From Siphonobacter sp. BAB-5405 (GTDB lineage: Bacteria > Bacteroidota > Bacteroidia > Cytophagales > Spirosomataceae): a stretch of DNA of 64,000 nucleotides. Below, piece by piece: positions 13,348 to 62,604 of this stretch (position 1 is the stretch's first letter; every line of letters starts with the position of its first letter). The notes beneath the pieces were generated by a model. The model was given only the letters and a program-made list of their open reading frames with translations, was not told the DNA's origin and did not search any database. The translations under genes and the position numbers were made by a program. The stretch is taken from assembly GCF_002872335.1 (NCBI RefSeq), contig NZ_NJAG01000011.1:1-64000 (forward strand), read 5' to 3'.

Positions 13348-13458
13348 TAAATGTCCGCAAACGAACAAACACTGTTCATTTGCGGACATTTATTTTATTT
13401 AATATACTGATTATCAATATAATTTAAATTACAAGTTCCGAATGGCATGGCTTTCTAC
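13348..13458 (+). promoter_or_regulatory. Permease regulatory module 1: paired activator sites plus sigma-54-like promoter
   Basis: Site A GTCCGCAAACGAAC (13353-13366) and site B GTTCATTTGCGGAC (13374-13387) start 21 bp apart. A TGGCATGGCTTTCTAC box has its GG at 13444, 57 bp after site B. The two sites sit inside a near-perfect inverted repeat with 20-bp arms (13348-13367 and 13373-13392). The ATG of P1 follows 48 bp after the GG. The -24 half fits a sigma-54 promoter well; the -12 half (TCTA instead of TTGC) does not. The activator is inferred, not seen. Confidence 0.7.
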
Positions 13459-13491
13459 AAAGCACTTTTGCTCCTTTCATCTCGTCTGCCT

Positions 13492-15879
13492 ATGCTGCGT
13501 AACTACCTGAAAATCGCCGTTCGTAACCTCTTTAAAAATCCGGGGTACAGCTTCATCAATATCATGGGACTGGCCGTAGGAATGGCTGCCAGCATGCTCA
13601 TCATGCTCTGGATTCTGGATGAGTTTAGTTACGATACATTTCATACGAAAAAAGACCGGATTTACCGCGTCATGCGGAATTTCAGGGAGTCGGAAACTAA
13701 TACCTGGACTTCGTCTTCGCAGGGGGGCTTACTGGGCGATTACCTCCGCAAGAACATTCCGGAGATGAAAAACGTCACGATGACTGGCTGGGAATCGCCG
13801 ATGGCACTGGCGTACCAGGACAAGGTGATGAAGAAAACCACGATGACGGTGGAGCCGGATTTTTTCCGCATGTTTTCCTTCGAACCCGTTAAAGGTTCAC
13901 TTCAGACGGCCTTCAAAAATCCTAATTCCATTGTCTTAACGGAATCAACGGCCAAAGCTCTTTTTGGCGACGAAGATCCAATTAATAAAGTAATTCGCTA
14001 CTACGGTCAGGTGGACCTGAAAGTCACCGCCGTACTGAAAGATTACCCGAAAAACTCGCGATTTGCTTTTGAGGCTTTAATCCCCGTAAAACTCTATGAT
14101 GCTCTGGGCTGGAGTTCGTACGGCTGGAGTAACAACAACTTTCAGTTGTACGTCGAGCTGGACCCCAATGCGAATCTGGAGGCGGTTAATGCGAAGATTC
14201 GAAACATTTATGCCCAACAGGATAAAGGCTCCAGCAACGGTGATATTTTTCTGCACGCCCTGACCCGTTCCCGTCTGCACAGCCGCTTCGAAAACGGTGT
14301 ATCCGTGGGTGGTCGCATCGAAAACGTTCAGTTGTTTGGGATCATCGCCGGATTTGTACTGCTCATTGCCTGTATCAATTTCATGAACCTGAGTACGGCC
14401 CGTAGTGAAAAGCGGGCCCGCGAAGTAGGCATCCGCAAGACCTCCGGAGCCATGCGAGGCGGTCTGATCGGACAGTTTCTGGGCGAATCGTTGTTGCTGG
14501 CACTCCTGGGATTTCTTCTGGCCATTGGTCTGGTAGAAGTAAGCCTGCCCTGGTTTAATGAACTGGTTGAAAAACAGTTATCCATTGACTTTCTGCACCC
14601 CTTGTACTGGCTGGCGGCTCTGTCAATCGTAGCTCTTACGGGCATTTTGGCGGGCAGTTATCCGGCGTTTTACCTGTCGTCTTTCAATCCGGTTACCGTA
14701 CTTAAAGGCACCATGCAAACGGGTCGGGCGGCTTCGCTTCCGCGTAAGGTACTGGTCATTCTGCAATTCTCTTTCTCCATTGCTCTCATTATCAGCACCA
14801 TTCTGGTGTACCAGCAGATTCAGCACGCCAAAAACCAGCCCCTGGGTTACGATCAGGAAAACCTGATGTATTTCGCCATGGAAGGCGATGCCTCGAATCA
14901 CTGGCAGGCCTTGCGGAGTGAAATCATGGCCACAGGACTGGCCGAAAACGCCTATGCTTCCAGTTCAGTACCCGCGGCAGAAGGCGGTTCCAACGGCTGG
15001 GGCTTCAACTGGCGGGGCCGCAAACCCGAACAGTACAATCAGGTCTTCGAGTTTATGCGGGTCAGCTATGATTTCGTCAAAACGTCGGGCGTACAGGTAT
15101 TGGCGGGTCGCGATTTCTCACCGGCTTTTCCCGGTGATACATCCCGGGCCGTCATTCTGAACGAATCGGCGGTGAAAGTCTTGGGATTCAGGAATCCACT
15201 GGGCGAAACCATCAGTCGCGGCGAACCGAACGAACCCTACGCTGAAAAATATACGGTCGTGGGCGTTGTCAAAAATTTCGCGTACGGTTCGCCCTACGAA
15301 ACGATGTCACCCATGATGATCAATGTATCCGTCAATGGCGGTAACCTGAGTTATATGGTCGTCCGGCTACGCGGGGCTAGCTCGGTCGGTATTGAAAAAA
15401 TCCAGAGCCTTTACCAGAAGTATGCCCGCAACGTTCCCTTCGATTACCACTTCATCGATTCCGATTTTGAGAAACGCTTTCAGGCCGAACGCCTGCTGGG
15501 AAGTCTGGCTTTCGTCTTTGGCAGCCTGGCGGTTTTTATCTCCTGCCTGGGCCTGTTCGGACTGGCTTCGTTCATGGCTGAGCAACGACGTAAGGAAATT
15601 GGCGTACGCAAAGTACTGGGAGCCAGCGTACTGAACCTCTGGGGTTTACTTTCCAAAGATTTCGTCGTACTGGTCGGACTTTCCTTTCTCATTGCCTCAC
15701 CCCTGGCGTACTACTTCATGAGCGACTGGCTCAACAAGTACGCCATCCGCATTGAGATTGGCTGGCTGGTCTTTGCCGTTTCGGGTTGTATCGCATTGGG
15801 CATTACACTGCTCACGGTTAGTTACCAGGCCATTCGGGCGGCTTCGGCCAATCCGGTTAAAAGTTTAAAAACCGAGTAA
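13492..15879 (+). CDS. MacB/FtsX-like ABC transporter permease P1
   Basis: 795 residues from the ATG at 13492. An in-frame ATG at 13447 lies inside the promoter box and is rejected, and all paralogues begin ML(R/K)N. Layout: transmembrane segment ~21-42, first periplasmic core domain (MacB_PCD type) to ~275, FtsX segments around 277-300, 340-365 and 383-400 with INFMNLSTARSEKRAREVGIRK, a fifth segment at ~420-442, a second periplasmic core to ~665, and a second FtsX set at ~672-693, 722-747 and 757-780 ending NPVKSLKTE. This is two fused four-segment permease halves. There is no ATPase domain and none is encoded nearby. P1 groups with P8 and P9. First gene of its unit; P2 starts 27 bases later. 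Confidence 0.95.
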   Translation: MLRNYLKIAVRNLFKNPGYSFINIMGLAVGMAASMLIMLWILDEFSYDTFHTKKDRIYRVMRNFRESETNTWTSSSQGGLLGDYLRKNIPEMKNVTMTGWESPMALAYQDKVMKKTTMTVEPDFFRMFSFEPVKGSLQTAFKNPNSIVLTESTAKALFGDEDPINKVIRYYGQVDLKVTAVLKDYPKNSRFAFEALIPVKLYDALGWSSYGWSNNNFQLYVELDPNANLEAVNAKIRNIYAQQDKGSSNGDIFLHALTRSRLHSRFENGVSVGGRIENVQLFGIIAGFVLLIACINFMNLSTARSEKRAREVGIRKTSGAMRGGLIGQFLGESLLLALLGFLLAIGLVEVSLPWFNELVEKQLSIDFLHPLYWLAALSIVALTGILAGSYPAFYLSSFNPVTVLKGTMQTGRAASLPRKVLVILQFSFSIALIISTILVYQQIQHAKNQPLGYDQENLMYFAMEGDASNHWQALRSEIMATGLAENAYASSSVPAAEGGSNGWGFNWRGRKPEQYNQVFEFMRVSYDFVKTSGVQVLAGRDFSPAFPGDTSRAVILNESAVKVLGFRNPLGETISRGEPNEPYAEKYTVVGVVKNFAYGSPYETMSPMMINVSVNGGNLSYMVVRLRGASSVGIEKIQSLYQKYARNVPFDYHFIDSDFEKRFQAERLLGSLAFVFGSLAVFISCLGLFGLASFMAEQRRKEIGVRKVLGASVLNLWGLLSKDFVVLVGLSFLIASPLAYYFMSDWLNKYAIRIEIGWLVFAVSGCIALGITLLTVSYQAIRAASANPVKSLKTE

Positions 15880-15906
15880 TCGCGTTTACTTCAACTTCCG
15901 ACTATT

Positions 15907-25548: not shown

Positions 25549-25662
25549 AAAATTGTCCGAAAGCGAACAGAGATCGTTCGCTTTCGGACAATTTTATTTT
25601 TTACAACTATTGATTTTCAAATACTTACCTCTTTGCCTTTCGTAACGGCACAACTTTAGACC
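25549..25662 (+). promoter_or_regulatory. Permease regulatory module 2: paired activator sites plus sigma-54-like promoter
   Basis: Site A GTCCGAAAGCGAAC (25555-25568) and site B GTTCGCTTTCGGAC (25576-25589), starts 21 bp apart, lie within a perfect 20-bp inverted repeat (25549-25568 and 25576-25595). The CGGCACAACTTTAGAC box has its GG at 25647, 58 bp after site B, and the P3 ATG is 44 bp beyond the GG. The -24 half is good, the -12 half (TAGA) poor. Confidence 0.72.
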
Positions 25663-25690: not shown

Positions 25691-28102
25691 ATGCTACGTA
25701 ATTACTTCCTCGTCGCTTACCGGACCCTCCTGCGTTATAAAGGCTATACGCTACTCAATGTTATTGGCCTTACCCTGGGCCTTACCTGTGGTATTCTGAT
25801 CTTTCAGGTCCTTAAGTTTCAAACCAGTTTCGATGCGTATCACACCCAGAAAGACCGCATTTATCGGGTAATGACCGAGTGGCATTCCGATGGGGTAGGC
25901 CGTTCGAGTGGCGTTCCTACGCCCATGGCGAAAGCCCTTCGAAATGACCTGTCTTTCTTCGAGCGTACGGCCATGATCTTCGATCAGCATGACATCCTGG
26001 TTTCCGTACCCGATGCCAAGGGACGTCCGCTCAAGAAATTTAAGGAAGACCATTCTATTGCCTACGTAGAACCCGAGTTTTTCAGCATCATGGATTACCA
26101 ATGGCTCAACGGCAACGCACGCCTGTCGCTGACCCAACCCAACAGCGTCGTACTTACGAAAAAGCTGGCGACCAAATTTTTTGGTACGGAAGACCCGATT
26201 GGGAAACGCCTCAAAGTTGACAATGAACTGGATTTAAAAGTAAGCGGTCTTTTAGCGGATATTCCGGAAAATACGGACGTACGTCAGGAAATGTTTATTT
26301 CCTGGGAAACGCTCAAAAACTATAAAAATGCGGGAGGGGCAGGACTCGATAATTGGGGCGGTGTCAATTCCAGTACGCATTGTTTTGTTTTGATGCGTCC
26401 GGGTGTCGATCCCAAAACGTTGGAGCAGCCCATGCGGAAGTTTATTAACAAGTATCACCCCAAAGATGGCAACGAGTGGTTTCATCCCTTCATTTCCGTT
26501 CAGGACGCTCACTTTGCCTTCGATTTCGATGCTCAGATCAGTAAAAGTCAGTTGTACGCCCTGGCGATCATTGGCTTGTTTTTGGTACTGACGGCCTGCA
26601 TCAATTTCGTGAATCTGGCAACGGCTCAGGCCCTTAAACGTTCCAAAGAAGTAGGCGTACGCAAAGTCATCGGGGGTACGAAAGGACAGCTTTTTGCTCA
26701 GTTTCTTTCCGAAACCGGACTCATTACCTTGTGCTCCGTTATTATGGCCGTACTGCTGACCGAGCTGGTTTTACCCAGCGTCAACCACTGGGTGTATGAA
26801 ACGGCGGGGCTCAATCTCTTCGGCAACCTTCAGCTGTTTACCGACTTGCCCATGCTCTTGTTCCTGTTGGTACTGGTCGTAGTGGTTACCTTCTTTTCGG
26901 GTTCGTACCCTGGACTGGTACTGGCGGGTTTCCAGCCCGTAGCAGCGTTGAAAGGCAAAATCAGTACGCAACAGGTGGGCGGCTTATCCGTACGCCGGGG
27001 TCTGGTGATGGTACAGTTTGTGTTGACGCAACTGCTCATCATCGGAACCATCGTGATCACCCAGCAAATGGATTTTTTCCGGGGAAAAGACATTGGCTAT
27101 GATCCTACCGCGATTGTCATGGTGAATTTACCTACGCCGGACAAAGTCACCGAGTCCCTTCGCCATCGGTTTATGCAGATACCCGGCGTAGAGAAAGTTT
27201 CGTTTGTGTCCCAGGCTCCCACCAGCAATTCCAACAACAATACCAACCACCGGTTCGATACCCGGCAGGAAGACGAGAAATGGTCCGTTAATACGAAACC
27301 CATTGACTCACATTACCTGCAAACCTTTGGTCTGAAGCTAGTAGCCGGTAAAAACATTCCCGAAAGTGATACCACGCGTGCGTTTATGGTGAATGAAACG
27401 TACGTAAAACGGCTGGGTGGAAATCTGAAACCCGCCGATGTCGTCGGGCGTAATATGACCGTTTGGGGCCGGACTGCTCCCATCGCTGGGGTAGTGAAAG
27501 ACTGGAATAACCTTTCTTTTCACAATCAGATTCAACCCGTGGTCTTGTTCTCCGATCATAACCTCTACTACACGGGAGCGTTAAAAGTCAGTACGGCTCA
27601 CCTCCCCCAGACGCTGGCCGGGATCGAACAGCTTTGGAATGAAGTGTATCCCGATCACCTGTACGATCAGACCTTCCTGGATCAACGTATTGCTCAGTCG
27701 TATCAAACCGAAAACCTGATTCTGAATCTGATTCGCGTCTTTTCCTTCATCGCCATCATCATTGGTTGCCTGGGTCTGTACGGACTGGTCAGCTTCATGG
27801 CGGCTCAAAAAACCAAGGAAATCGGCGTTCGGAAAGTACTCGGTGCCAGCGTAGCCCAGATTCTGGCTTTGTTTGGAAAAGAGTTCGCCAAACTGGTGGT
27901 ACTGGCCTTCGTCGTAGCCGCTCCGCTGGGCTGGTGGGTGATGTCGGGCTGGCTGGAAGATTATACTTACCGCATCAGTATTGGCTGGACGACCTTCCTG
28001 GTAGCCATTTTCACCACGGCCTTCATTGCTACCCTGACCGTTGGCTGGCAATCCTTCCGGGCCGCTACGGCTAACCCGGCGAAGAGTTTGAAGAGTGAGT
28101 AG
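25691..28102 (+). CDS. MacB/FtsX-like ABC transporter permease P3
   Basis: 803 residues, two fused permease halves without an ATPase. It defines the subgroup P3/P4/P6: start MLRNYFLVAYRTLLRYKGY, signature INFVNLATAQALKRSKEVGVRK, the linker GFQPVAALKGKISTQQVGG before segment five, TQQMDFFRGKDIGYDP, and the C-terminal variant GCLGLYGLVSFMAAQKTKEIGVRK, with LYG where other paralogues have LFG. In the second periplasmic core it has a WGRTAPIAGVVKDW motif. First gene of its unit, directly behind module 2. Confidence 0.95.
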   Translation: MLRNYFLVAYRTLLRYKGYTLLNVIGLTLGLTCGILIFQVLKFQTSFDAYHTQKDRIYRVMTEWHSDGVGRSSGVPTPMAKALRNDLSFFERTAMIFDQHDILVSVPDAKGRPLKKFKEDHSIAYVEPEFFSIMDYQWLNGNARLSLTQPNSVVLTKKLATKFFGTEDPIGKRLKVDNELDLKVSGLLADIPENTDVRQEMFISWETLKNYKNAGGAGLDNWGGVNSSTHCFVLMRPGVDPKTLEQPMRKFINKYHPKDGNEWFHPFISVQDAHFAFDFDAQISKSQLYALAIIGLFLVLTACINFVNLATAQALKRSKEVGVRKVIGGTKGQLFAQFLSETGLITLCSVIMAVLLTELVLPSVNHWVYETAGLNLFGNLQLFTDLPMLLFLLVLVVVVTFFSGSYPGLVLAGFQPVAALKGKISTQQVGGLSVRRGLVMVQFVLTQLLIIGTIVITQQMDFFRGKDIGYDPTAIVMVNLPTPDKVTESLRHRFMQIPGVEKVSFVSQAPTSNSNNNTNHRFDTRQEDEKWSVNTKPIDSHYLQTFGLKLVAGKNIPESDTTRAFMVNETYVKRLGGNLKPADVVGRNMTVWGRTAPIAGVVKDWNNLSFHNQIQPVVLFSDHNLYYTGALKVSTAHLPQTLAGIEQLWNEVYPDHLYDQTFLDQRIAQSYQTENLILNLIRVFSFIAIIIGCLGLYGLVSFMAAQKTKEIGVRKVLGASVAQILALFGKEFAKLVVLAFVVAAPLGWWVMSGWLEDYTYRISIGWTTFLVAIFTTAFIATLTVGWQSFRAATANPAKSLKSE

Positions 28103-28156
28103 AGGATGATTAGCAATAGGACTGTTTTTCATCCTGTAGAGGTGGCTGATTTTTTA

Positions 28157-28441
28157 GTCCATATCGCGAACGCCACTCACTTCCTCTTGCTCAGAGCCAC
28201 CGCATTGCTGAGGGAGCCACCATTGAATGGTAGGCGGCTTATCGCGATAGGACGGGGCCCGGGTTTATGTCGCCCATGCAAATTTTAGGCTGTATTTTAA
28301 CAACCTCCGACTATTAACTAACAACTTCTGTCAGAAGAAGCAAACTTCTCCCGCCCGTAAGCCATTCCATAACGGCCACTGAACGACCTACGACAGCCGC
28401 AATGCGGTGGCCCAGAGCGGGCGGTTGCTGCCATGGGATGG
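28157..28441 (-). repeat. Dispersed non-coding repeat, copy B
   Basis: Inverted copy of the element at 19093-19347, about 285 bases long and filling most of the 503-base gap between P3 and P4. It keeps the GCAATGCGGTGG, GGCGACATAAA and CCCCGTCCTAT blocks but has extra bases near its 5' part, and the hairpin arm of copy A is only partly conserved. The remainder of the gap (28442-28605) holds one weak activator-like half site (GTTCAAAGCGAAAT at 28486) without a matching promoter box. Confidence 0.72.
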
Positions 28442-28605
28442 CCCCCATGGAATGTCAGGCGTGCTTACGGGAACAAATTCGGTCTGTTCAAAGCGAAATA
28501 CATTAATCCATCATTATTGAGTTGTCAGCCGCTTCACTCGTTAGGAGTTTTTGAAGAAACCAATACGAACTCTTTCCAACCATCAACGGACAAACCATCC
28601 ATCCC

Positions 28606-31005
28606 ATGCTACGTAACTACTTCCTGGTCGCCTATCGCACCCTGCTTCGATACAAAGGCTATACGCTGCTTAATGTATTGGGCCTAACGTTGGGCATTGC
28701 CTGTAGCATCCTGATTTTTCAGGTGATTAAATTCCAGACCAGCTTCGATCGCTATCACGCGAACGCAGATCGGATTGTGCAGGTGACTACGGAAAATAAG
28801 GACGAAAATGGGGTGAGTCATTCGTCCGGCGTCCCCGCCCCCGTCGCCAAGGCTCTGCGAAACGATTTTGCCTTTCTGGAACGCGTGTCGGTTCTCATGG
28901 CCGTAGGCAATCGCCTCATCACCATTCCGGACAGCAAGGGTACGGTTCAGAAAAAATTCAAAGAAGAAAAAACCATCGGTTTTGTTGAACCCGATTATTT
29001 CCATATTCTGGATTATCAGTGGCTGGCGGGCTCACCAAAGGAACTGACGGCCCCCAACACCGTCGTACTTACCCGAAAAATGGCCGAAAAATACTTTGGC
29101 ACGGAGCAGGCGGTTGGGAAGATAATTCGTCTGGAAAATACCATGGATTTAAAGGTAACGGGCATCGTAGCGGATATTCCCGAGAATACGGACCGCCGCC
29201 TGGAAGTATTCATTTCCTGGGCCTCCATGCCCAAGCAATGGGACGGTATTGAGGTAGATAACTGGGGTTGGACCAATTCCAGCACGAACTGTCTGATCCT
29301 TTTTAAAAAGGAGGCTGACATTGAACGTTTGAATAAGCTGATGCCCGCATTTCGTCAAAAATACCTGGGCGAGGATGCGAAAGAGGGCTCCTACCCGCTG
29401 GTACCTTTGAAAAGACTGCATTTTGATTCGAATTACGGCGGAGCAAAGGATACGATGTTTTACGTACTGGCGGCGATCGGTTTGTTTCTACTGCTGACGG
29501 CCTGCATCAATTTCGTGAATCTGGCGACGGCTCAGGCTCTTAAACGTTCGAAAGAAGTAGGCGTACGCAAGGTCATCGGCGGTACGAAAGCCCAGCTTTT
29601 TGGTCAGTTCCTCACTGAAACTGGACTTATTACGTTCATCGCCATCGTGGTAGCCGTGGGCCTCAGCGAAGTACTGATTCCCCTGGCGAACGCAGCCATC
29701 AAAAATCAGACGAGTATCAATTTTACGGGTACGTTTTCCTTCTTTCAGGAACCACTCCTGTGGGCTTTTTTACTGGGTTTATTACTAGTGGTGACACTTC
29801 TGGCGGGCTTTTATCCGGGTATGATCCTGTCGGGTTTTCAACCCGTAGCCGCTCTGAAGGGCAAAATCAATACGCAGCAGGTCGGTGGTTTATCCGTACG
29901 CCGCAGTCTGGTGATCGTCCAATTCATTATCACTCAGGTATTGATTATCAGTACGATCGTGATTACCCAGCAAATGGGTTTTTACCGCAACCAGGACATT
30001 GGTTACGACCCTTCGGCGATCATTGTCATTCCCAACCCGACACCCGAACAGACCAATCTTCAAACCTTCCGGCATCGGCTTGGACAGGTACCCGGCGTCG
30101 AAGCCGTATCCTTTTTTGCGGCTCCGCCTACGTCTACCACTAATTTCTCCACCAACCATCGGTTTGGTTCCCACACGGAGGTTGAACCCTGGAGTCTGGT
30201 AATCAAGCCAGCTGACTATACCTATGCCAACACATTTGGCCTGAAATTACTGGCCGGTCGGAACATTATCGAAAGTGATACGGCTCGGGAATACCTGGTC
30301 AACGAAGCCTACGTTAAGAAATTAGGATTAAAAATTCAGGATGTACTTGGCCAGAATTTAGATGTCTGGGGCGTATCGGCTCCCATCGTAGGCGTGATCA
30401 AAGACTTTAATAATTTGTCCCTGCGGGAAGAAATCAGTCCGATTGCGATATTCTCCGCCCGGGATTTTCAAAAATTCGGGGCCGTCCGCGTCAGCACGCG
30501 TGATTTGCCCGGCACTTTGGCGGGCGTGGAGAGCGTTTGGAATGATACCTATCCCAATCACCTCTACGAGCAATCATTCATGGACGAGCGTATTGCGAAA
30601 ATGTACAAGAGTGAATCCCTGATGCTGCAAACCATACGGATCTTTTCGTTCATCGCCATTTTCATCGGCTGCCTGGGCCTGTACGGACTGGTCAGTTTCC
30701 TGGCGGCTCAGAAAACCAAGGAGATCGGCGTTCGGAAAGTACTCGGTGCCAGTTTGATTCAAATCTTGGGACTGTTTGGAAGAGAATTTGCCCGCCTGAT
30801 TCTCGTAGCCTTTGCCATCGCGGCACCCCTGGGTTGGTGGCTGATGTCGCAGTGGCTGAAAGAATACACGTACCGGATTTCGATCGGCTGGGAGACGTTT
30901 GCTCTGGCCATTCTGCTCACCACCGCTATTGCCGCCCTGACTGTGGGCTGGCAATCCTTCCGGGCCGCTCTGGCCAATCCGGCCAAGAGTTTAAAAAGCG
31001 AGTAG
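28606..31005 (+). CDS. MacB/FtsX-like ABC transporter permease P4
   Basis: 799 residues, close paralogue of P3 and P6, with almost the same start (MLRNYFLVAYRTLLRYKGYTLLNVLGLTLG), INFVNLATAQALKRSKEVGVRKVIGG, GFQPVAALKGKINTQQVGG and SCLGLYG-type C-terminal half. The first periplasmic core differs most from P3, which suggests that this domain sets partner or substrate choice (inference). The gene lacks a promoter module of its own; the 503-base gap from P3 contains repeat copy B, so whether it is still read from module 2 is uncertain. Confidence 0.95.
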   Translation: MLRNYFLVAYRTLLRYKGYTLLNVLGLTLGIACSILIFQVIKFQTSFDRYHANADRIVQVTTENKDENGVSHSSGVPAPVAKALRNDFAFLERVSVLMAVGNRLITIPDSKGTVQKKFKEEKTIGFVEPDYFHILDYQWLAGSPKELTAPNTVVLTRKMAEKYFGTEQAVGKIIRLENTMDLKVTGIVADIPENTDRRLEVFISWASMPKQWDGIEVDNWGWTNSSTNCLILFKKEADIERLNKLMPAFRQKYLGEDAKEGSYPLVPLKRLHFDSNYGGAKDTMFYVLAAIGLFLLLTACINFVNLATAQALKRSKEVGVRKVIGGTKAQLFGQFLTETGLITFIAIVVAVGLSEVLIPLANAAIKNQTSINFTGTFSFFQEPLLWAFLLGLLLVVTLLAGFYPGMILSGFQPVAALKGKINTQQVGGLSVRRSLVIVQFIITQVLIISTIVITQQMGFYRNQDIGYDPSAIIVIPNPTPEQTNLQTFRHRLGQVPGVEAVSFFAAPPTSTTNFSTNHRFGSHTEVEPWSLVIKPADYTYANTFGLKLLAGRNIIESDTAREYLVNEAYVKKLGLKIQDVLGQNLDVWGVSAPIVGVIKDFNNLSLREEISPIAIFSARDFQKFGAVRVSTRDLPGTLAGVESVWNDTYPNHLYEQSFMDERIAKMYKSESLMLQTIRIFSFIAIFIGCLGLYGLVSFLAAQKTKEIGVRKVLGASLIQILGLFGREFARLILVAFAIAAPLGWWLMSQWLKEYTYRISIGWETFALAILLTTAIAALTVGWQSFRAALANPAKSLKSE

Positions 31006-31070
31006 GGTTTAAAGTTTTGGGTTGTTTGTTGTCAAGGATTCGGGTTGCTGGAACTTCCTGCGGATTCGGT

Positions 31071-31190
31071 TCGGGCTGGATTTTTGCCGGGGCGGCTCTG
31101 GCTACCCTACCGGTAACCCTACTCACCGTTAGCTATCAGGCCATCCGGGCGGCGTTGATGAATCCGGTTCAATCGCTGAAATCGGAATAA
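31071..31190 (+). pseudogene. C-terminal fossil of a deleted permease
   Basis: 39 codons and a TAA just after P4, reading SGWIFAGAALATL, then TLLTVSYQAIRAALMNPVQSLKSE (written here in two parts). This is the last membrane segment and tail that end every permease of the array, and it is nearest to P8 (SGWIFFAAG, LTVSYQALSAALINPVKSLKSE). There is no start and no upstream homology, so it is the remnant of a gene whose front was lost by deletion or recombination. Confidence 0.88.
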
Positions 31191-31215
31191 TTCAATCAAA
31201 AGCACTAAAGAAAGC

Positions 31216-31325
31216 TGTTCGGAAGCGTACGACACATTGTACGCTTCCGAACACTTGTTTTTATATTAATTACTGAATACCAACACCTTAACCCTTCTTA
31301 CCTTTCATCGGCACGACTTTTCTAA
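31216..31325 (+). promoter_or_regulatory. Permease regulatory module 3: paired activator sites plus sigma-54-like promoter
   Basis: Site A GTTCGGAAGCGTAC (31217-31230) and site B GTACGCTTCCGAAC (31239-31252), starts 22 bp apart, form a perfect 15-bp inverted repeat. CGGCACGACTTTTCTA has its GG at 31310, 58 bp after site B. Here the P5 ATG (31440) is 130 bp downstream, so this unit has a longer leader than the others. Confidence 0.7.
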
Positions 31326-31439
31326 CCGGTAGATTAACTTTCACTTACCAGTCATTCTAGTACGCCATTACCGAGTAAACGAAACGAACTACGCAGCTTT
31401 CCAGCACACGTTAACCCATACCTGCAACCCTTGCGACCG

Positions 31440-33833: not shown

Positions 33834-33938
33834 TGAGGGAATGCCTGATCTACGCTTGTACCGAACTCTTTGTCTCCTTAGTAATTGTTAGAAAAGCTTC
33901 AGCAAAGCGATCATTGCTTCATCCTTATCTATCCAAAG

Positions 33939-36341: not shown

Positions 36342-36355
36342 GCTAGCTCCTTTTT

Positions 36356-36388
36356 GGAACGGGTTAGGATTCGTGTTCGACCCGTTCC
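36356..36388 (+). terminator. Hairpin after the P5-P6 unit
   Basis: Perfect 9-bp arms GGAACGGGT (36356-36364) and ACCCGTTCC (36380-36388), starting 14 bases after the P6 stop. The T-rich sequence before it (CTCCTTTTT) is on the wrong side for a plus-strand terminator, so this is a modest call. Confidence 0.45.
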
Positions 36389-36422
36389 GAAGCCATCCTT
36401 TCCTTTTGAATCTTTACTCCAT

Positions 36423-36532: not shown

Positions 36533-36563
36533 GTAACCGGATCTACTGAAAGCGTCCTGTCTT

Positions 36564-38993: not shown

Positions 38994-39086
38994 CAGGGCG
39001 GTTTTGTTCCGTTCTACGGTTCCTAAAGAAGAGGTTCGTTCACGTTTGACAGACGGGTGGGTTCGCTCCACCGCAATCAACAAGCT

Positions 39087-41462: not shown

Positions 41463-41472
41463 AGTACGTCAA

Positions 41473-41503
41473 GGCTGACGGGATGGTTTATACTCCGTCA
41501 GCC
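41473..41503 (+). terminator. Hairpin between P8 and P9
   Basis: Perfect 9-bp arms GGCTGACGG (41473-41481) and CCGTCAGCC (41495-41503), 11 bases after the P8 stop, with no T run. It may be a partial terminator, an mRNA-stabilising hairpin or a segmental expression device, so P9 may be read less than P8. Confidence 0.4.
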
Positions 41504-41659
41504 CTCTCAGGCGGCAACAACCAAGCCTAAAATCAGAGTAATTAGTTATACGATCCCAAAAAGGATACAGTATTTGAAAGGGTATGCAACGCCAAAGGCG
41601 ACTTTATCATCCTTGGTAGGAATAACCGGATTTTCTTCTTCATTCCTGCTCCCTATCCT

Positions 41660-44035: not shown

Positions 44036-44064
44036 TCCATTATCGATTCCGAAACCGGTACTCA

Positions 44065-44174
44065 TGTCCATTTACGAACAGTTGACTGTTCGTAAATGGA
44101 CATCTTTATTTACACAAACTCCTGATAATCATATACTTATTCACTTATCGATCCCTAAGGCATGACTTTCTAGG
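44065..44174 (+). promoter_or_regulatory. Permease regulatory module 5: paired activator sites plus sigma-54-like promoter
   Basis: Site A GTCCATTTACGAAC (44066-44079) and site B GTTCGTAAATGGAC (44088-44101), starts 22 bp apart, forming a perfect inverted repeat. AGGCATGACTTTCTAG has its GG at 44159, 58 bp after site B. The P10 ATG is 47 bp beyond the GG. The -12 half (TCTA) matches module 1 but not the sigma-54 consensus. Confidence 0.7.
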
Positions 44175-44205
44175 TACTGTTTCACTACCCTTGATCCCAG
44201 AACCT

Positions 44206-46605
44206 ATGCTGAAGAACTATTTGCAAATAGCCCTGCGTAATCTCCGACGGAATCCCCTATATAGTCTGCTCAACATTGGCGGACTCGCCACTGGGCTGGC
44301 CGTCAGTATTCTGATTCTGCTGTACGTCGTTCATGAATACAGTTACGATACGTTTCATCAGAACGGTGATCGGATTTTCCAGACGATGGACCGGATGCCT
44401 TACGGTGAAACGCACATTCAGACCCAGTCCCTGTCGGTGCAACTGGGACCGCGTACGCAGGCGGCCCGACCGGATCTGGTGGAAGCAACGGTTCGTACGC
44501 GACCTTCCATGCGAACGGTCCTGAAAACGGCCACGAACTTCCACTCTTTCGAGGATCAGCTTCTCTTTGCCGACCCTTCCTTTCTGACTGTCTTTACGTA
44601 CCCCCTACAAAAAGGAAATGCGGCCACGGCCCTGACCAGGCCCAATACGATTGTGCTTTCCCCGGAATTAGCCCGGAAGTACTTTGGAGCGGCTAATCCA
44701 CTGGGTAAAACGCTGGTCTACGATAACAAACTACCGCTGGAAGTAACCGGCGTGCTGGAAAGCCTGCCTTCGCACAGTACGCTTTCCTTCTCCGCACTCA
44801 TTTCCTTCGCCACGCAAAAAAATCTGGTTTCTTACGACGGTGGATTACGCCAGCAACTGGAATACAGTCACGTTGGCGGCGGGGCTTTTCAGACGTATTT
44901 TCTGCTGACGAAAGCCGAACACCGATCGAAAGTAGAACGGCTGATTCGTCAGTTGCACCTGAAAGATCATCCCGTTAAAAAGGGTGAAAAAACGGAAGAG
45001 TTTATTTTAGAACCTTTCACCGATCTTCATCTGCACGGCATCATGGTGGATCATTCCCAGCAGTACCACGGGTTGTTTACAGGCATTGCCCTGGGTATTT
45101 TGCTACTGGCCCTGATCAACTACATGAACCTGACTACGGCCCGGGCTACCCAGCGAGCCAAAGAAGTAGGCGTACGGAAAGTACTTGGTGGCTTACGGAG
45201 TAATCTGGCCGCTCAGTTTTATACCGAATCCGTATTGATTACCCTGATTTCCTTTGGGCTGAGTCTGTTGCTGGTTGAAGCCTTACGGCCTTTCTTTTTT
45301 CAGTGGCTGGATCTTCACATCAGCGATACCTTCCTGAGTACGCCGCTCTTTATTGGCTTACTGGCGGGTCTGCTGGTGGCCTGTACGCTGTTGGCGGGCA
45401 GTTATCCGGCTCTGCTGCTCTCCCGGTTTGCTCCGGCCGAAGTATTGAAAGGACGTTTTTCAAAAGCAAATGGGATCAACATTCGCCGCGTCCTGACCAT
45501 CTTTCAGTTTTCGGTTTCCATTGGTTTGATTGTGTGCAGTCTGATTGTCAAGAACCAGCTTGATTTTCTCCGGCATCAGAATATCGGACTGGATCGCGAC
45601 GGGATTGTGGTAATTACCGTTCCTCAGACGATGATTCCTCATTACGCCGCATTCAAGCAGGAACTCCGGCAACAGGCGGGGATTCAGAACGTAGCGGCGG
45701 CGAGCTGGCCGCTGTTCAAGGGTGGCGTGAGCATGTTCTTTACGGAGTCGCCGATTACCAAAAAGGAGATTTCTTTCCAGATTACGGCCGTGGATAATTC
45801 CTTTTTCCAGACCATGAATGTACCCTGGAAAATCAAGCCCTCCCGGCCTTATTCGGCCAATCCTCCTTCATTGATTCTGAATGAATCAGCGGTGAAAGAG
45901 TTCGGATTTTCGGAAAGCCCGATTGGCGAAAAAATCAAGCTGGGCATCCAGCCTGCCGAAGTGGTGGGAGTCGTCAAAGATTTCAACCTTTTTTCCAGCA
46001 AGCACCCACAGGGCGGACTGGGCATTTCGGTAGTAGCCGATACAACACGAGAACTGATGACCTACGGCGGCTGCCTGTACCTGAAGCTGGCCGCTGGCGG
46101 CAACGTAACCACCCGACTGGCCGCCGTGGAATCGGTATTCAAAAAATACGAGACGGAATATCCCTTCGAGTACTACTTCCTCGACGAAGCCTACGACGCT
46201 CTGTACAAAGCCGAAAGTAAACTGGGCACGATGCTGACGGCCTTTACCGGTCTGGCCATTCTGATTGCCTGCCTTGGCCTGTTTGGGCTGGCTACCTTTG
46301 CCGTGGAAACCCGCCGCAAGGAAATTGGCATCCGTAAAGTCCTGGGGGCCAGCTTATCCAGCATTACGATACTCTTGTCGAAAGAATTTTTAAGACTGGT
46401 ACTGATTGCCAATGTCATCGCGTTTCCGCTGGCCTGGTATTTCATGCAGGACTGGTTGCAGGCCTACGCCATTCGTATTCAAATGGGCTGGGTAGCGTTT
46501 GCTGTGTCGGGGTTCATCGCTCTGGTGATTGCGTTTGTCACCGTCAGCAGCCAGGCCATCCGGGCGGCGAATGCGGACCCGGTGAAGAGTCTGAAAAGTG
46601 AATAA
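44206..46605 (+). CDS. MacB/FtsX-like ABC transporter permease P10
   Basis: 799 residues from the ATG at 44206, where MLKNYLQIALRNLRRNPLYS begins; a TTG at 44191 is also in frame but falls outside the conserved start. Signature INYMNLTTARATQRAKEVGVRKVLGGLRSNLAAQFYTES. The first periplasmic core ends with a His-containing stretch TDLHLHGIMVDHSQQYHG. The second half has VETRRKEIGIRKVLGASLSS. The tail NADPVKSLKSE has the ADP variant shared only with P11 and P12, so this trio seems to have diversified together. First gene behind module 5. Confidence 0.95.
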   Translation: MLKNYLQIALRNLRRNPLYSLLNIGGLATGLAVSILILLYVVHEYSYDTFHQNGDRIFQTMDRMPYGETHIQTQSLSVQLGPRTQAARPDLVEATVRTRPSMRTVLKTATNFHSFEDQLLFADPSFLTVFTYPLQKGNAATALTRPNTIVLSPELARKYFGAANPLGKTLVYDNKLPLEVTGVLESLPSHSTLSFSALISFATQKNLVSYDGGLRQQLEYSHVGGGAFQTYFLLTKAEHRSKVERLIRQLHLKDHPVKKGEKTEEFILEPFTDLHLHGIMVDHSQQYHGLFTGIALGILLLALINYMNLTTARATQRAKEVGVRKVLGGLRSNLAAQFYTESVLITLISFGLSLLLVEALRPFFFQWLDLHISDTFLSTPLFIGLLAGLLVACTLLAGSYPALLLSRFAPAEVLKGRFSKANGINIRRVLTIFQFSVSIGLIVCSLIVKNQLDFLRHQNIGLDRDGIVVITVPQTMIPHYAAFKQELRQQAGIQNVAAASWPLFKGGVSMFFTESPITKKEISFQITAVDNSFFQTMNVPWKIKPSRPYSANPPSLILNESAVKEFGFSESPIGEKIKLGIQPAEVVGVVKDFNLFSSKHPQGGLGISVVADTTRELMTYGGCLYLKLAAGGNVTTRLAAVESVFKKYETEYPFEYYFLDEAYDALYKAESKLGTMLTAFTGLAILIACLGLFGLATFAVETRRKEIGIRKVLGASLSSITILLSKEFLRLVLIANVIAFPLAWYFMQDWLQAYAIRIQMGWVAFAVSGFIALVIAFVTVSSQAIRAANADPVKSLKSE

Positions 46606-46647
46606 ATGCTCCGTATTCCTGTTTGCTTTTGCTAATCCCTTATCCTT

Positions 46648-49032
46648 ATGCTGAAAAACCATATCAAAATCACCTTCCGCAATTTGTGGCGAAACAAAAT
46701 GTATTCGGGACTCAATATCGGGGGCCTGGCCCTCGGGATGACCGCTTCGATTCTGCTTTTGTTGTGGGTGCAGAATGAACTGCGTTTTGATACCTATCAT
46801 CAACGGGCGAGTCAGATCTATCGGGTTACCAATACGCTTAAAATCAGTCCGCAGGATACATGGACGTGGTCCAACTCACCCCTGATCATGGGGGATTTCG
46901 CCCAGAAGCAAATTCCGGAAATTGAAAAAATAACCCGTTTTCAGAAGCCCTGGAGCCCCCTCGTATTTCGGGTAAACGATGAGCTTTTCAAAGAGTCGAA
47001 CGTCGCGTATATTGATTCAACCTGGTTTGAGGTTTTCGATTACGCCTTCGTCATGGGTAGTCCCAAAGTTGTTTTCAAGGACTACAACAGCATTGTTCTG
47101 ACCCAGTCCAAAGCAAAAACGTTTTTCGGGGATGCTGCTGCGGCTATTGGTCAGACCATTCGCCTCGATTCCACGGACTATGTTGTCAAAGCCATCGTCA
47201 GGGATAATCCGGCCCAGTCCAGCTTTCAGTTCGATCTGATGTTGCCCATTGCGGCACTCCTGAAAAATCCGGAAGACGCCGCCAACGATCGCCAGTGGGG
47301 AAACTTTAATTATCAACTGTTCCTGCAACTGGTGCCTGGATCCAGTACCAAAGCCATCGGAGCGAAACTGACAAACCTCTTTCGTACCTACAAAAAAGAC
47401 ACGCACACTATTGCCAGCCTTTTGCCACTGACCGACATCCACTTTGCCAAAGGGTTTCAGCGGGATGAGTTAGCCATCGGCAATGAACGTACCACGCAGA
47501 TTCTGGGTATCGTTGGCTTACTGATTCTCATCATTGCCTGCATCAACTACGTAAACCTGTCCACCGCCCGAGCAAGTACCCGGTCCAAGGAAGTGGGCAT
47601 CAAGAAGCTGATTGGAGCCGAACGGGGCCGCTTATTTGGGCAGTTTCTGACGGAATCGCTGGTTTTCACGCTTCTAGCCCTGTGCCTCACACTGGCTTTG
47701 GTCGAACTGCTGTTACCCTTTTTTAATGACTTTACGAGAAAACAGTTTGTGTTTACCCTCAGCGATCCCGGTGTAGCGGGCATCCTGCTGGGAACAGGGC
47801 TGGTGACCATTTTTCTATCGGGCCTTTATCCGGCCCTGCTGCTTTCTTCCTTTCAGCCCATGCAGGTTCTGAAAGGCAACCAGCTCCTGGGAACGAAAAC
47901 AACGCACTTCCGAAAAGCACTGGTGATTCTGCAGTTTACCATTTCCATTACCCTGATCATTGGCACGCTGGGTATTTTCAAACAACTCCGTTTCATCCAG
48001 ACGCACGATCCGGGGTATGCCCGGGAAGGAATTTTCAGCTTCGAACTCCCTTCCGATGAGGTCAGAAACCGTACGGAGCGGGAAGCGTTCAAAACCCAGC
48101 TTCGTTCCCTGACTGTCCTTGAGGGCGTAACCGCGACCAGTCTTCCGCTTGAAAACAACCCCAACAGTATGGCGGGTAATCTGGAGTGGAAAGGCAAGGC
48201 GGAAGACTTCAACCCTACCGTTTCGGCGTTGTCGGTTGAACCTGAGTTCCAGCCTATCTTCAACCTCAAACTGGTAGAAGGCCGTTGGTTCAGTCATGCC
48301 GTACGCATGGATACGGCTCACGTTATTCTCAACGAAAAAGCGATCAAAACCCTGGGGTTGAAGCCGCCCTATCTCGGACAAGCCATTACGTTTCGGGGGA
48401 GAACCGGGCAAATTATTGGAATTGCGAAAGATTTTCATTTCCGCAATTTTCACGAAGCCATCGCTCCGGCCATTTTGTTCTACGATCACTCCTGGCAGCG
48501 TACGTTTTACGTGAAAGCCTCCCTGGCGAGTACCTCGCGAGCCCTGGCGGAAACGGAGAAAGTGTGGAAACGCCTGTATCCAAACCAGCCCTTTGAGTAT
48601 CATTTTGTCGAAGAGAGCTTTCAGCGGCTACACGAGCTGGAACGGCGGACCGGAACACTTTTCAACCTGTTCGCCATGATCGCTATTCTTATTTCCTGCC
48701 TGGGTCTTTTTGGGTTAGCTACGTACACTGTAGAAGTTCGAACGAAAGAAATCGGGATTAGAAAAGTATTGGGAGCCAGCGTGTTCCATATTACCAGCCT
48801 CATTTCCAAAGATTTCGTCGCCCTGATTCTCATTGCGTTCGCTATTGCCTCCCCCCTGGCCTGGTATGCCCTCAATCGCTGGCTGGAAGACTTTGCTTAC
48901 AAGGCCCACATCAGCGGGCTTACGTTTGGAATCGGCGGACTGATTGCTCTGACCGTAGCCATTCTGACCGTTTCTACGCAGGCTGTTCGGGCAGCCAATG
49001 CCGACCCGGTGAAGAGTTTAAAAAATGAGTAA
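46648..49032 (+). CDS. MacB/FtsX-like ABC transporter permease P11
   Basis: 794 residues starting MLKNHIKITFRNLWRNKMYS, 42 bases after P10. Signature INYVNLSTARASTRSKEVGIKKLIGAERGRLFGQFLTES, with the usual IRK changed to IKK. Second periplasmic core with RGRTGQIIGIAKDFHF; VEVRTKEIGIRKVLGAS in the second FtsX half; tail NADPVKSLKNE, the only one ending in KNE. Middle gene of the P10-P11-P12 unit. Confidence 0.95.
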   Translation: MLKNHIKITFRNLWRNKMYSGLNIGGLALGMTASILLLLWVQNELRFDTYHQRASQIYRVTNTLKISPQDTWTWSNSPLIMGDFAQKQIPEIEKITRFQKPWSPLVFRVNDELFKESNVAYIDSTWFEVFDYAFVMGSPKVVFKDYNSIVLTQSKAKTFFGDAAAAIGQTIRLDSTDYVVKAIVRDNPAQSSFQFDLMLPIAALLKNPEDAANDRQWGNFNYQLFLQLVPGSSTKAIGAKLTNLFRTYKKDTHTIASLLPLTDIHFAKGFQRDELAIGNERTTQILGIVGLLILIIACINYVNLSTARASTRSKEVGIKKLIGAERGRLFGQFLTESLVFTLLALCLTLALVELLLPFFNDFTRKQFVFTLSDPGVAGILLGTGLVTIFLSGLYPALLLSSFQPMQVLKGNQLLGTKTTHFRKALVILQFTISITLIIGTLGIFKQLRFIQTHDPGYAREGIFSFELPSDEVRNRTEREAFKTQLRSLTVLEGVTATSLPLENNPNSMAGNLEWKGKAEDFNPTVSALSVEPEFQPIFNLKLVEGRWFSHAVRMDTAHVILNEKAIKTLGLKPPYLGQAITFRGRTGQIIGIAKDFHFRNFHEAIAPAILFYDHSWQRTFYVKASLASTSRALAETEKVWKRLYPNQPFEYHFVEESFQRLHELERRTGTLFNLFAMIAILISCLGLFGLATYTVEVRTKEIGIRKVLGASVFHITSLISKDFVALILIAFAIASPLAWYALNRWLEDFAYKAHISGLTFGIGGLIALTVAILTVSTQAVRAANADPVKSLKNE

Positions 49033-52698: not shown

Positions 52699-52699
52699 G

Positions 52700-57764: not shown

Positions 57765-57771
57765 AACAGAC

Positions 57772-60334: not shown

Positions 60335-61699
60335 TTACGATTTCTTGAAATCAACCACAAATACTGACCCTTCTCCTACGACGGATTGAAAGTTTAACAT
60401 AAAGCCATGAAGATCCAGAATACGTTGCGTTAAGTGTAAGCCCAAGCCATGGCCAGCAACCGAAGTAGTGTTTGACCCACGATAGAAAAGATCAAAAATT
60501 TTCGATTGCTCCGTCGGTTCGATCCCTCTACCCTGATCAACAATACGAATTTGTAAATTTGAAGTATAATCTAACGATACAGTGACGGGTTTTGCATCCG
60601 AAAACTTAACCGCATTCTCAATTAAATTGGTTAATACGAGTGATAGTAATACTTCATTTCCTTCAACAAGTAGCCAGTCCGTGTTTTCCTGTTCTGACGA
60701 AACTTCCACTTCGACTACCGCCGATGGATGCGTCAACTGAATTTTCCCTAACACATCCCATAAAACGTCATCCATTTGAATGGCATGAATTGGAAAATTA
60801 CGGCTGGATTCCAGTCCCGACAGGATGAGTAAGCCCTCCAGTATATCCTTTAAATGCTGAGCATCCAGCAACAGGGTTTGTAATAAAGACTGGTACTCTT
60901 CTTCACTTCGCTTCTGTTGCAGGTTTACCTGTAGCTCACCAATCAGGGCAGCCAGAGGTGTTTTTAACTCATGGGAAGCGTGTTTCAAGAAGTGTTTCTG
61001 GCTTTTTACGCTTTTTTCCAGCCGCTCCAGAAAATAATTGAACGTGGCCACGACCTGCTGCAACTCATCGTCCGTGGCTCCTTTCTGCTGGGGTAAGCGT
61101 AAGTGCAGGTTATCCGCCGAAATCGTATTGACCTGATCAATGACTTCCGTAAAAGGGTGAAACGTTCGTTTGGAGAGCCAGGCATTCAGGAGCAGGTTAA
61201 TGGCAATCCCTCCGAAAAAGAAGGTCAACATGGTGATTCCCAGGTTGGTAAGCCGGTCCTGCCCGCTTACATTAATTCCCGAAGAAATGATGATAAAATC
61301 ACCCTGATTATCCTGATAATAAATGCCCACACATTGCCGTCCATTCTGATAAAACTGTACCGACTTTGCTTGCGGTATTTCCTTTAATCGCTTCGGATTA
61401 ATCGTTACAGCCGGACCATTATCCACGAAAATCAATTTACCCGTCGTGTCGTATACCTGTACAATTTCATCCACTAATGGCACGCGGTAAATGGATTCCT
61501 GTTTGCTGTAATTTAATTTTGTCGCTTCATCTTTTTCAAAGTATACAAAGGCAGCAATTAAAGCCCGATCACTGAGTTTATTAAAAAATATGGTATCCGT
61601 ATGTTTCTTAAAGATGATATAGGTGCCTACGAAAACAATCACCAGGGTAATGGCGAAAATCAGGGTGGATTGTAACGTAAGTTTAAAACGAAGTTTCAT
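60335..61699 (-). CDS. Sensor histidine kinase, probably metal-sensing
   Basis: 454 residues: transmembrane segments ~12-30 and ~152-174 bound a ~120-residue periplasmic sensor, then HAMP (to ~230), H-box HASHELKTPLAAL with His243, N-box NLIENAVKFSDA, and ATP-lid motifs DQGRGIEPTEQSKIFDLFYRG and GHGLGLHLTQRIL. It phosphorylates the regulator encoded 48 bases upstream in the same direction. Being next to an RND heavy-metal operon, it resembles CusS/CzcS in context; the ligand is not shown. Confidence 0.93.
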   Translation of the reverse strand: MKLRFKLTLQSTLIFAITLVIVFVGTYIIFKKHTDTIFFNKLSDRALIAAFVYFEKDEATKLNYSKQESIYRVPLVDEIVQVYDTTGKLIFVDNGPAVTINPKRLKEIPQAKSVQFYQNGRQCVGIYYQDNQGDFIIISSGINVSGQDRLTNLGITMLTFFFGGIAINLLLNAWLSKRTFHPFTEVIDQVNTISADNLHLRLPQQKGATDDELQQVVATFNYFLERLEKSVKSQKHFLKHASHELKTPLAALIGELQVNLQQKRSEEEYQSLLQTLLLDAQHLKDILEGLLILSGLESSRNFPIHAIQMDDVLWDVLGKIQLTHPSAVVEVEVSSEQENTDWLLVEGNEVLLSLVLTNLIENAVKFSDAKPVTVSLDYTSNLQIRIVDQGRGIEPTEQSKIFDLFYRGSNTTSVAGHGLGLHLTQRILDLHGFMLNFQSVVGEGSVFVVDFKKS

Positions 61700-61747
61700 T
61701 CAACAAAGTCTATCTAATAGCTGTTTTCTAAACCAATAAATACCATT

Positions 61748-62437
61748 CTATTCTTCCGTATATTGTTCAAACAAATATCCTCTTCCTTTAATCGTTTGGA
61801 TGAACTTCGTATCGTACCCTTTATCCAGTTTATTTCTCAGATAGTTAATATATACATCTACTACATTAGTGTTCGTATCAAAGTTTAAATCCCAGGCTGC
61901 TTCGGCGATTTCAGCACGCGTTACTACTCTCTCTTTGTTCTGCATAAAAAACAATAAGAGTTTAAACTCACGCGGTGATAATGTAATTTCGGTTTCTCCC
62001 CGTTTCACGACATGGCGGTCCAGATTGATGCTTAAATCATGATACGTATACTGTTCAAAGTTTCCTTTTTCGAAGGATTTCCGCCGCAGCTGAGCATTGA
62101 TTCGAGCAATCAGTTCCAGAAAGTTGAAGGGCTTTCCCAGGTAATCGTCGGCCCCAGCTTCGAGTCCCTGAATCTTCTCCTCCGGCGTATTTAACGCACT
62201 CAGCATGATGATCGGAACGTTGATTTCCCGCCGCCGAATCGTTCGGCAAACATCAAATCCATCCAGATCCGGCAACATAATGTCCAGAATAATGGCATCA
62301 AATTCCTGCTGCATACACTCCTCGATGGCCTCGTAACCCTTCGTGACGTGCCGGACCTGAAACATTTTTTCCCGCAATCCTTTTTCAACAAAGGAAGCCA
62401 CCCGGCTATCATCCTCAACGAGCAGAATTTTTGACAT
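61748..62437 (-). CDS. OmpR-family response regulator of the efflux operon
   Basis: 229 residues. Receiver domain 1-120 with the acidic pair E8-D9-D10, phospho-acceptor Asp52 in LDIMLPDLDG and the conserved Lys in LGKPF. Winged-helix domain ~130-229 (SPREFKLLLFFMQNKERVVTRAEI, NVVDVYINYLRNKLD, IQTIKGRGYLF). It probably activates the efflux operon by binding the 60258-60292 repeats. It is not an NtrC-type protein, so it is not the predicted sigma-54 activator of the permease modules. Confidence 0.94.
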   Translation of the reverse strand: MSKILLVEDDSRVASFVEKGLREKMFQVRHVTKGYEAIEECMQQEFDAIILDIMLPDLDGFDVCRTIRRREINVPIIMLSALNTPEEKIQGLEAGADDYLGKPFNFLELIARINAQLRRKSFEKGNFEQYTYHDLSINLDRHVVKRGETEITLSPREFKLLLFFMQNKERVVTRAEIAEAAWDLNFDTNTNVVDVYINYLRNKLDKGYDTKFIQTIKGRGYLFEQYTEE

Positions 62438-62494
62438 AGCAGTATAAGCTGGTTACTGAAGTATCATTCATTAATGACAAAACTAGTATGCTAT

Positions 62495-62604
62495 TGTTCA
62501 AAACCGCACAGCTTACTGTTCATAACTGAGCAACCCTTTATTTATAACTACTTGTTTATCTGAGACTTAACAAACTTTAACTTTTATTGGAATACTTTTA
62601 GGGC
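62495..62604 (+). promoter_or_regulatory. Permease regulatory module 6 (divergent copy)
   Basis: Site A GTTCAAAACCGCAC (62496-62509) and site B GTTCATAACTGAGC (62518-62531), starts 22 bp apart; both are degraded forms of GTTCG-N4-CGAAC. The GG of TGGAATACTTTTAGGG is at 62589, 58 bp after site B, at the position predicted from the other five modules. The -24 box itself is weaker (GGAAT for GGCAY). The P13 ATG is 56 bp beyond the GG. Confidence 0.55.

Follow-up and report, generated by a model that had tools for sequence, protein, structure and literature searches.

In a window of 64,000 nucleotides from Siphonobacter sp. BAB-5405 (contig NZ_NJAG01000011.1, positions 1 to 64,000; "the window" denotes this whole stretch), six similar regulatory modules are located upstream of genes for permeases of the MacB/FtsX type. 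The parts of a module follow each other in constant order: two 14-bp sites, A and B, which could be tandem operator sites with the core GTnC-N6-GnAC, a T-rich stretch, a box resembling binding sites of integration host factor (IHF), and a -24 box as in sigma-54 promoters. In our reading, which is given a probability of about 0.6, the modules are sigma-54 control regions under one activator of the NtrC type, and their operators double as a terminator when the module follows a co-directional gene. Comparisons of sequences revealed the regulon, the anatomy of the modules, covariation between the two sites, a T-tract on one side only, and a link to the orientation of the upstream gene. From these, it appears likely that the activator binds, that sigma-54 is used, that the DNA is bent as by IHF, and that upstream transcription is terminated and the promoter insulated. 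An initial annotation of this DNA had interpreted the modules as a sigma-54 regulon with pairs of plain activator sites. Computational analysis supported the regulon, but two plain activator sites leave the repeat formed by A and B and the one-sided T-tract unexplained.

In that annotation, six site pairs had been placed at the coordinates listed below, with starts of A and B separated by 21, 21, 22, 22, 22, and 22 bp in modules 1 to 6, and a direct check found all of them. A GG at constant distance had also been described; it lies 56 bases past the end of site B in module 1 and 57 bases in modules 2 to 6.

Module 1, sites: A 13353-13366 and B 13374-13387, + strand, 13/14 paired, T-rich stretch 13389-13397
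Module 1, boxes: IHF-like 13412-13424, -24/-12 box 13444-13457 (GGCATGGCTTTCTA), + strand
Module 1, gene: MacB/FtsX-type permease, frame 13447-15879 as listed, + strand; it begins inside the -24/-12 box, and the real start is probably further downstream
Module 2, sites: A 25555-25568 and B 25576-25589, + strand, 14/14 paired, T-rich stretch 25591-25599, divergent upstream gene
Module 2, boxes: IHF-like 25615-25627, -24/-12 box 25647-25660, + strand
Module 2, gene: permease 25691-28102, + strand, ADOP-like, below cut-off
Module 3, sites: A 31217-31230 and B 31239-31252, + strand, 14/14 paired, T-rich stretch 31254-31262
Module 3, boxes: IHF-like 31278-31290, -24/-12 box 31310-31323, + strand
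Module 3, gene: permease 31431-33833, + strand, ADOP-like, below cut-off
Module 4, sites: A 36424-36437 and B 36446-36459, + strand, 12/14 paired, weak T stretch 36461-36469
Module 4, boxes: IHF-like 36485-36497, -24/-12 box 36517-36530, + strand
Module 4, gene: permease 36564-38993, + strand, ADOP-like, below cut-off
Module 5, sites: A 44066-44079 and B 44088-44101, + strand, 14/14 paired, T-rich stretch 44103-44111
Module 5, boxes: IHF-like 44127-44139, -24/-12 box 44159-44172, + strand
Module 5, gene: permease 44191-46605, + strand, ADOP-like, below cut-off
Module 6, sites: A 62496-62509 and B 62518-62531, + strand, 7/14 paired, no hairpin, divergent upstream gene
Module 6, boxes: IHF-like 62557-62569, -24-like box 62589-62602 (GGAATACTTTTAGG), + strand
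Module 6, gene: MacB_PCD/FtsX permease 62645-64000, + strand, truncated by the window end, ADOP-like, below cut-off

These arrangements are not expected by chance. A scan allowing up to three mismatches per site, with G and C at the ends and a spacing of 21 or 22 bp, yielded exactly six pairs on the + strand of the window, all six with GG at the set distance. The matches on the minus strand were the same six pairs read backwards, none of them with GG. In 100 dinucleotide shuffles of the window, 0.84 pairs were found on average (maximum 4), and 0.05 pairs with GG (maximum 1). Lone sites are only about twofold above chance (62 versus 33.6 at up to two mismatches). No match to Rfam at the gathering threshold was obtained in the window. 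That each of the six modules precedes a permease gene also proved correct, by MacB_PCD/FtsX matches in Pfam for modules 1 and 6 and by sub-cut-off ADOP matches for all six.

The two sites, described initially by the motif GTTCG-N4-CGAAC, are not separate palindromes: compared to the reverse complement of B, site A has 1, 0, 0, 2, 0, and 7 mismatches out of 14 in modules 1 to 6. Judged from alignments, A and B are the arms of one covarying inverted repeat, a point missed initially. Ten modules were detected in the complete genome (see below), and in these, each site shows symmetry at positions 1, 2, 4, 11, 13, and 14, which, except for one cell, do not vary, as expected of protein contacts. Over the whole stem formed by A and B, covariation reached 0.413 compared to 0.156 +/- 0.033 in shuffles, with 89% of the cells paired. 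Structure within the sites pairs less than its shuffles in the same ten modules, and two independent palindromes were rejected, as positions 3 and 6-9 of site A do not bear them out. Outside the core, pairing was 0.787 versus 0.466. Because the first search models reward pairing, the test was repeated on 40 modules from genomes that were new in a sequence-only search of the family, among the matches listed. Here, pairing outside the core amounted to 0.569 versus 0.475 +/- 0.019, a value reached by none of 2000 shuffles. Twelve pairs of orthologous modules within the genus, picked by hand with near-identical ones excluded, were also compared. Nine changed base pairs stay Watson-Crick by changes on both sides (two of the nine being the same change), three were mended, nine were broken, five of these becoming G-T, and one was neither. 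By eye, and uncounted, several modules with poor pairing between A and B were seen in which B alone and flanking A- and T-runs could form a stem. Likewise, at an extra pair from a core-only scan (L135:2344, - strand), the B site and its flanks could form a stem of their own, followed by a T-run.

NtrC-type enhancers and their sigma-54 promoters are composed of paired upstream activating sequences, an IHF site, and -24/-12 elements. The modules resemble this architecture in their pairs of dyad sites separated by about two helical turns, in the IHF-like box, in the -24 GG at a fixed, helically phased distance, and in the linkage of an NtrC-type regulator to one target operon. They differ from it in that the sites are also hairpin arms followed by a T-tract, that the GC at -12 is mostly missing, and that the loop of the candidate activator reads GAFTDA. 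The sequence between site B and the GG had been regarded as not conserved, which is wrong. With the consensus WATCAR-N4-TTR, the best IHF-like 13-mer begins exactly 32 bp 5' of the GG in all six window modules and matches at 11-12 of 13 positions. In 125 modules with GG the mean score was 12.07, compared to 10.76 in shuffled linkers. Distances from this box to the GG peak at 20-21 (59 modules), 31-32 (36 modules), and 43 (7 modules), that is, in steps of about one helical turn. In 124 of 144 modules, the gap between the end of site B and the GG measures 54-57 bases; in another 14 it measures 65-69. The latter are all from outside the family, elsewhere in the order, and 11 of them are from one genome, G040. 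These distance classes are again about one turn apart, and the phasing would fit a looped enhancer. The -24 element is strong, being TGGCAY- or TGGTAY-like in relatives, with the GG required by the scan.

The assignment of the modules to one regulon was strengthened by searches of the whole genome, in which ten modules were detected. A profile built from the six window modules revealed three more, whose E values were at most 2.3e-7; the tenth scored E 1.8. Module 10 was accepted for its place beside the activator gene and was afterwards used to train later models. The four additional modules are arranged as follows:

Module 7: followed by genes for an ABC ATPase and an outer-membrane efflux protein
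Module 8: followed by a gene for a MacB permease
Module 9: L050:9874-9991, - strand, before the gene of a 228-aa protein with only a sub-cut-off match to DUF3244, not an exporter part
Module 10: before genes for an ECF sigma factor, an HlyD protein, an ABC ATPase, and two permeases

In relatives, a base-paired model detected modules in 28 of 59 genomes and a sequence-only model in 125 of 150 genomes of the family, the Siphonobacter genome being included in both counts; for each genome, the number of modules is to be read as at least the number found. The set from the base-paired model comprised 80 modules of relatives and the 10 own modules, after removal of other-strand copies of the same hairpin and of some of the weakest matches (E about 0.002 to 0.009). 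The 96-row training alignment of the later model holds five rows that are other-strand copies or second copies from repeat loci. A further 20 modules were taken from a search of other families of the order. A scan of this kind had been suggested initially, with exporter genes expected downstream, and 134 of the 150 modules examined are indeed followed on their own strand, at no more than 3.3 kb, by an exporter part, in 105 cases a permease. The permease frame starts within 400 bp in 84 of the 150 modules. The window permeases that were examined carry MacB_PCD and FtsX domains (Pfam). Those following modules are similar to ADOP permeases (TIGR03434) in their size of about 800 aa and, for the first four module-driven ones, in matching along most of the profile, but they are not members by the curated threshold: with scores of 145-338 bits, all six stay below the cut-off of 622.3, the sixth one while truncated by the window end. 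The ortholog of module 9 in G001 (L110) is likewise not located before an exporter part. The first gene after module 10 (L020:11117-11653, + strand), which adjoins the activator gene, encodes an ECF-type sigma factor, and through it the regulon may be linked to a second regulon.

The sigma-54 reading had been made dependent on rpoN, and two full-length rpoN genes with all three sigma-54 domains are present, at C4:71934-72503 (L014:9553-11040) and at C8:2621-3202 (L015:2210-3733). An activator of the NtrC type encoded in trans had been predicted as well. A candidate gene with a module beside it was found on another contig, and co-occurrence and proximity point to it. Among 11 matches to PF00158 in the genome, six are strong. 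They include a gene on contig 70 that encodes an NtrC-type response regulator and is divergent from module 10. Its product contains PF00072 (Response_reg), PF00158 (Sigma54_activat), and PF02954 (HTH_8) above the Pfam cut-off, and a histidine kinase gene is the second gene downstream. This regulator is the likely activator of the modules. Its loop is GAFTDA rather than GAFTGA, and G[AS][FY]TDA is present in 79 of 80 orthologs. In the available text of a Desulfovibrio study, GAFTDA is counted among the variants that would retain activity (PMC4641369).

The activator gene is 93-95% identical in named Siphonobacter records. Its ortholog divergently adjoins a module in four genomes of the same genus (G001-G004) and in one of another genus (G031), and in G005 gene and module are both at contig ends. 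In 22 genomes from other families of the order, modules (E <= 0.01) were detected in all nine with an ortholog and in none of the 13 without (Fisher p=2e-6), the ortholog threshold of E < 1e-130 having been fixed after the list was seen. Exceptions are G014 and G017, each without an ortholog and with one weak partial module match. Within the family, among the matches listed, 13 of 23 orthologs are located within 100 kb of a module, compared to 2 of 58 paralogous activators; the own genome, G005, and genomes without a module by the base-paired model were left out here, and four of the 13 near cases are from the same genus. Moreover, at 55 of 80 named ortholog loci a sequence-only match (E <= 0.05, some partial, one per locus kept by hand) ends 0-600 bp upstream of the gene. 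These loci include metagenome-assembled genomes labelled Zixibacteria, Aminicenantes, Latescibacteria, KSB1, Ignavibacteriae, Neomarinimicrobiota, and Acidobacteria (labels unchecked).

A terminator function is suggested by the sequence around the stem and by its surroundings. In 130 modules, 5.57 of the 8 bases after B are T on average and 2.64 of the 8 bases before A are A; 111 modules lean towards the tract after B and 8 the opposite way. The T-tract is weak in modules 4 and 6. When the upstream gene is co-directional, 12.0 of 14 positions are paired (80 modules), compared to 10.0 when it is divergent (32 modules, p=2e-7). Orientation was deduced from codon statistics, not from annotation, and 18 of the 130 modules had no clear upstream orientation. 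After deduplication the values were 11.8 (34 modules) and 10.3 (19 modules, p=0.0012), and the effect is seen within 10 of 11 genomes in which both orientations occur (five are Siphonobacter). Without deduplication, the sequence-only set (23 versus 15 modules) gave pairing values of 11.1 versus 9.3 (p=0.004) and a T content of 6.8 versus 5.0 of 8 (p=1.6e-5). Modules next to the activator gene were collected by a model-free scan, which found a pair at 40 of the 80 loci; the comparison covered the 36 that have a GG box as well. Of these, the 20 pointing away from the gene have 9.6 pairs and 3.45 T of 8, the 16 pointing at it 9.5 pairs and 2.1 T of 8; the divergent ones have no co-directional gene upstream. 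The hairpin starts at a median of 40 bp past the upstream stop codon, and within 50 bp in 46 of 80 modules. Co-directional modules fold with a mean of -19.0 kcal/mol, compared to -8.6 kcal/mol in shuffles that keep the core, and 78 of 80 are below their own shuffle mean. Modules 6 and 10 are not predicted to form a stable hairpin. In a plain terminator scan of window positions 28000-47000, the two longest stems were modules 3 and 5.

Since pairing and T-tract are strongest at a co-directional upstream gene and weaker beside the activator gene, our proposal is that the enhancer also serves as an intrinsic terminator, by which the promoter would be insulated. Like intrinsic (Rho-independent) terminators, the modules have a GC-containing stem, a short loop, and a one-sided T-tract past the stop codon of a co-directional gene; unlike them, the stem is made of putative activator operator sites, and termination is a prediction. 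According to this proposal, one NtrC-type response regulator, encoded in trans beside an exporter operon with a module of its own, would bind the tandem operators. Downstream of these, an IHF-like bending site, a strong -24 box, and a weak -12 element would serve to drive MacB/FtsX-type exporter genes. After a co-directional gene, both operators would also be shaped into a hairpin with a following T-tract, so that the enhancer DNA acts as the intrinsic terminator of that gene and holds read-through RNA polymerase off the enhancer-promoter region. A more far-reaching version, to which we give an even chance, is a composite "enhancer-terminator" of about 36 bp. In it, the operator pair, as the arms of a terminator, would end the upstream transcript and switch on the next exporter gene, activator bound to the arms and polymerase crossing them would compete, with read-through gating the regulon, and the operator would be common to Bacteroidota and several other phyla.

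A number of observations weigh against these interpretations. On the promoter side, the sigma-54-like box described initially is confirmed for the GG of -24, present in all six window modules, but not for the GC at -12, found in none of the six. Elsewhere, GC is also rare, occurring near +12 in 4 of 46 Siphonobacter modules and in 17 of 77 others, and we file the modules as sigma-54-like control regions that depart from the -12 consensus. Two genomes, G019 and G029 (66% complete), contain modules yet no ortholog of the activator at E < 1e-130. Concerning termination, a hairpin in plus-strand RNA should tolerate G-U mismatches above the mirror case A-C; the counts are balanced (83 versus 78 in all modules; 54 versus 43 in co-directional ones, p=0.31) and give RNA no support. 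Strand-specific wobble as proof of an RNA hairpin was discarded upon this negative test. Module 2 is a perfect hairpin though its upstream gene is divergent. In four module 2 orthologs outside the nearest genome, the upstream frame is co-directional in two, divergent in one, and not called in one, and a recent rearrangement at module 2 is possible. Even among the 32 divergent modules, 26 have a more stable fold than their shuffles with the core kept. After deduplication, a simple terminator threshold does not separate the two orientations (27/34 versus 14/19, p=0.74), the difference in T-tracts is at p=0.07, and pairing in the sequence-only set (3 versus 6 modules) is no different (p=0.51). 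The plain terminator scan covered module 4 without listing it and lists module 3 on both strands. Finally, the search models hold T-rich columns, and most modules of relatives were found with a model rewarding pairing. With respect to -12, the G at the G position is present in 86% of 77 modules from other genera and in 59% of 46 Siphonobacter modules, a genus-wide weakening. As to the T-tract, one site pair of G033 (L079:1510, + strand) has well-paired arms followed by an A-rich rather than T-rich stretch after B, an apparent exception to the terminator pattern.

Several of these points would be accommodated if the modules were ordinary sigma-54 enhancers only, with A and B as sites for activator dimers and with complementarity and T-richness having no role in termination. 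A T-rich stretch may make bending easier, and the activator may prefer mirror-image asymmetry. Modules adjacent to the regulator gene would then work without hairpin or T-tract, divergent modules are also T-rich (median 6 of 9), and the negative G-U result fits as well. Covariation at bases varying freely between modules, the two-sided changes between orthologs, and the dependence on the orientation of the upstream gene are not accounted for in this way, and a role as enhancers only appears rather unlikely. Pairing could also matter at the level of DNA, either as a cruciform competing with activator binding or through template-switch repair keeping the arms alike without selection. Wobble mismatches symmetric between the strands are expected of DNA, and cruciform-prone inverted repeats are enriched in promoter regions of Escherichia coli according to the available text of a study that also describes long-armed inverted repeats near gene ends as mostly terminators (PMC6060812). 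Neither a T-tract on one side only nor pairing that depends on the upstream gene and lies just past stop codons would be anticipated from such processes, which makes them improbable. Finally, the modules might do no more than terminate upstream genes, the downstream GG being there by chance and neither sigma-54 nor an activator being involved. A hairpin and T-tract past stop codons and the weak -12 would agree with that. The fixed spacing to the IHF-like and GG boxes, the co-occurrence with one activator, and the modules between divergent genes or upstream of the regulator gene in several phyla render it highly improbable. Sigma-54 control regions with operators doubling as terminators remain our preferred reading.

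A 2025 study presented, as first evidence, sigma-54 promoters before FtsX-like and COG0577 permeases, with Bacteroidota among the groups concerned (PMC12316311). The modules agree with that report in connecting sigma-54 promoters to FtsX-type permeases; unlike our analysis, its available text names no activator, operator, or terminator for the permeases, and the string "upstream activat" is absent from its main text. In Flavobacterium psychrophilum, sigma-54-type promoters with measured 5' ends are described, the tabulated selection in the available text including chaperones, a gliding operon, and exported proteins (PMC9723704). In the literature covered, mostly without subscription papers, neither an activator nor an operator of the exporter regulon was found, nor any terminator containing an enhancer. 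An enhancer-terminator would represent a new combination of known parts. The regulon provides a testable activator, operator, and set of targets for the connection of sigma-54 to MacB/FtsX exporters, which was surveyed in 2025 from predicted promoters, and the operator is extended to several phyla. If the proposal is true, clustered paralogous exporter genes would be insulated from each other at no extra sequence, and it would be advisable to check whether predicted sigma-54 enhancers overlap with predicted terminators.

Two other candidates for regulatory genes of the modules were considered and rejected. The OmpR-type regulator and histidine kinase encoded in the window (60335-62437) are not of the NtrC type. 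An rpoN gene about 8 kb past the window, examined as a dedicated partner, adjoins a class II tRNA synthetase gene, and at least two rpoN copies are common in the family: two or three were found in many of its members among the 59 genomes, the own one included. The C4 copy contains the RpoN box ARRTVAKYR, and the box pattern does not match the C8 copy, which adjoins genes for an NtrC-type regulator and a histidine kinase. The rpoN gene past the window is close to module 7, and this neighbourhood recurs in G001, G003, G004, and G005 of the same genus.

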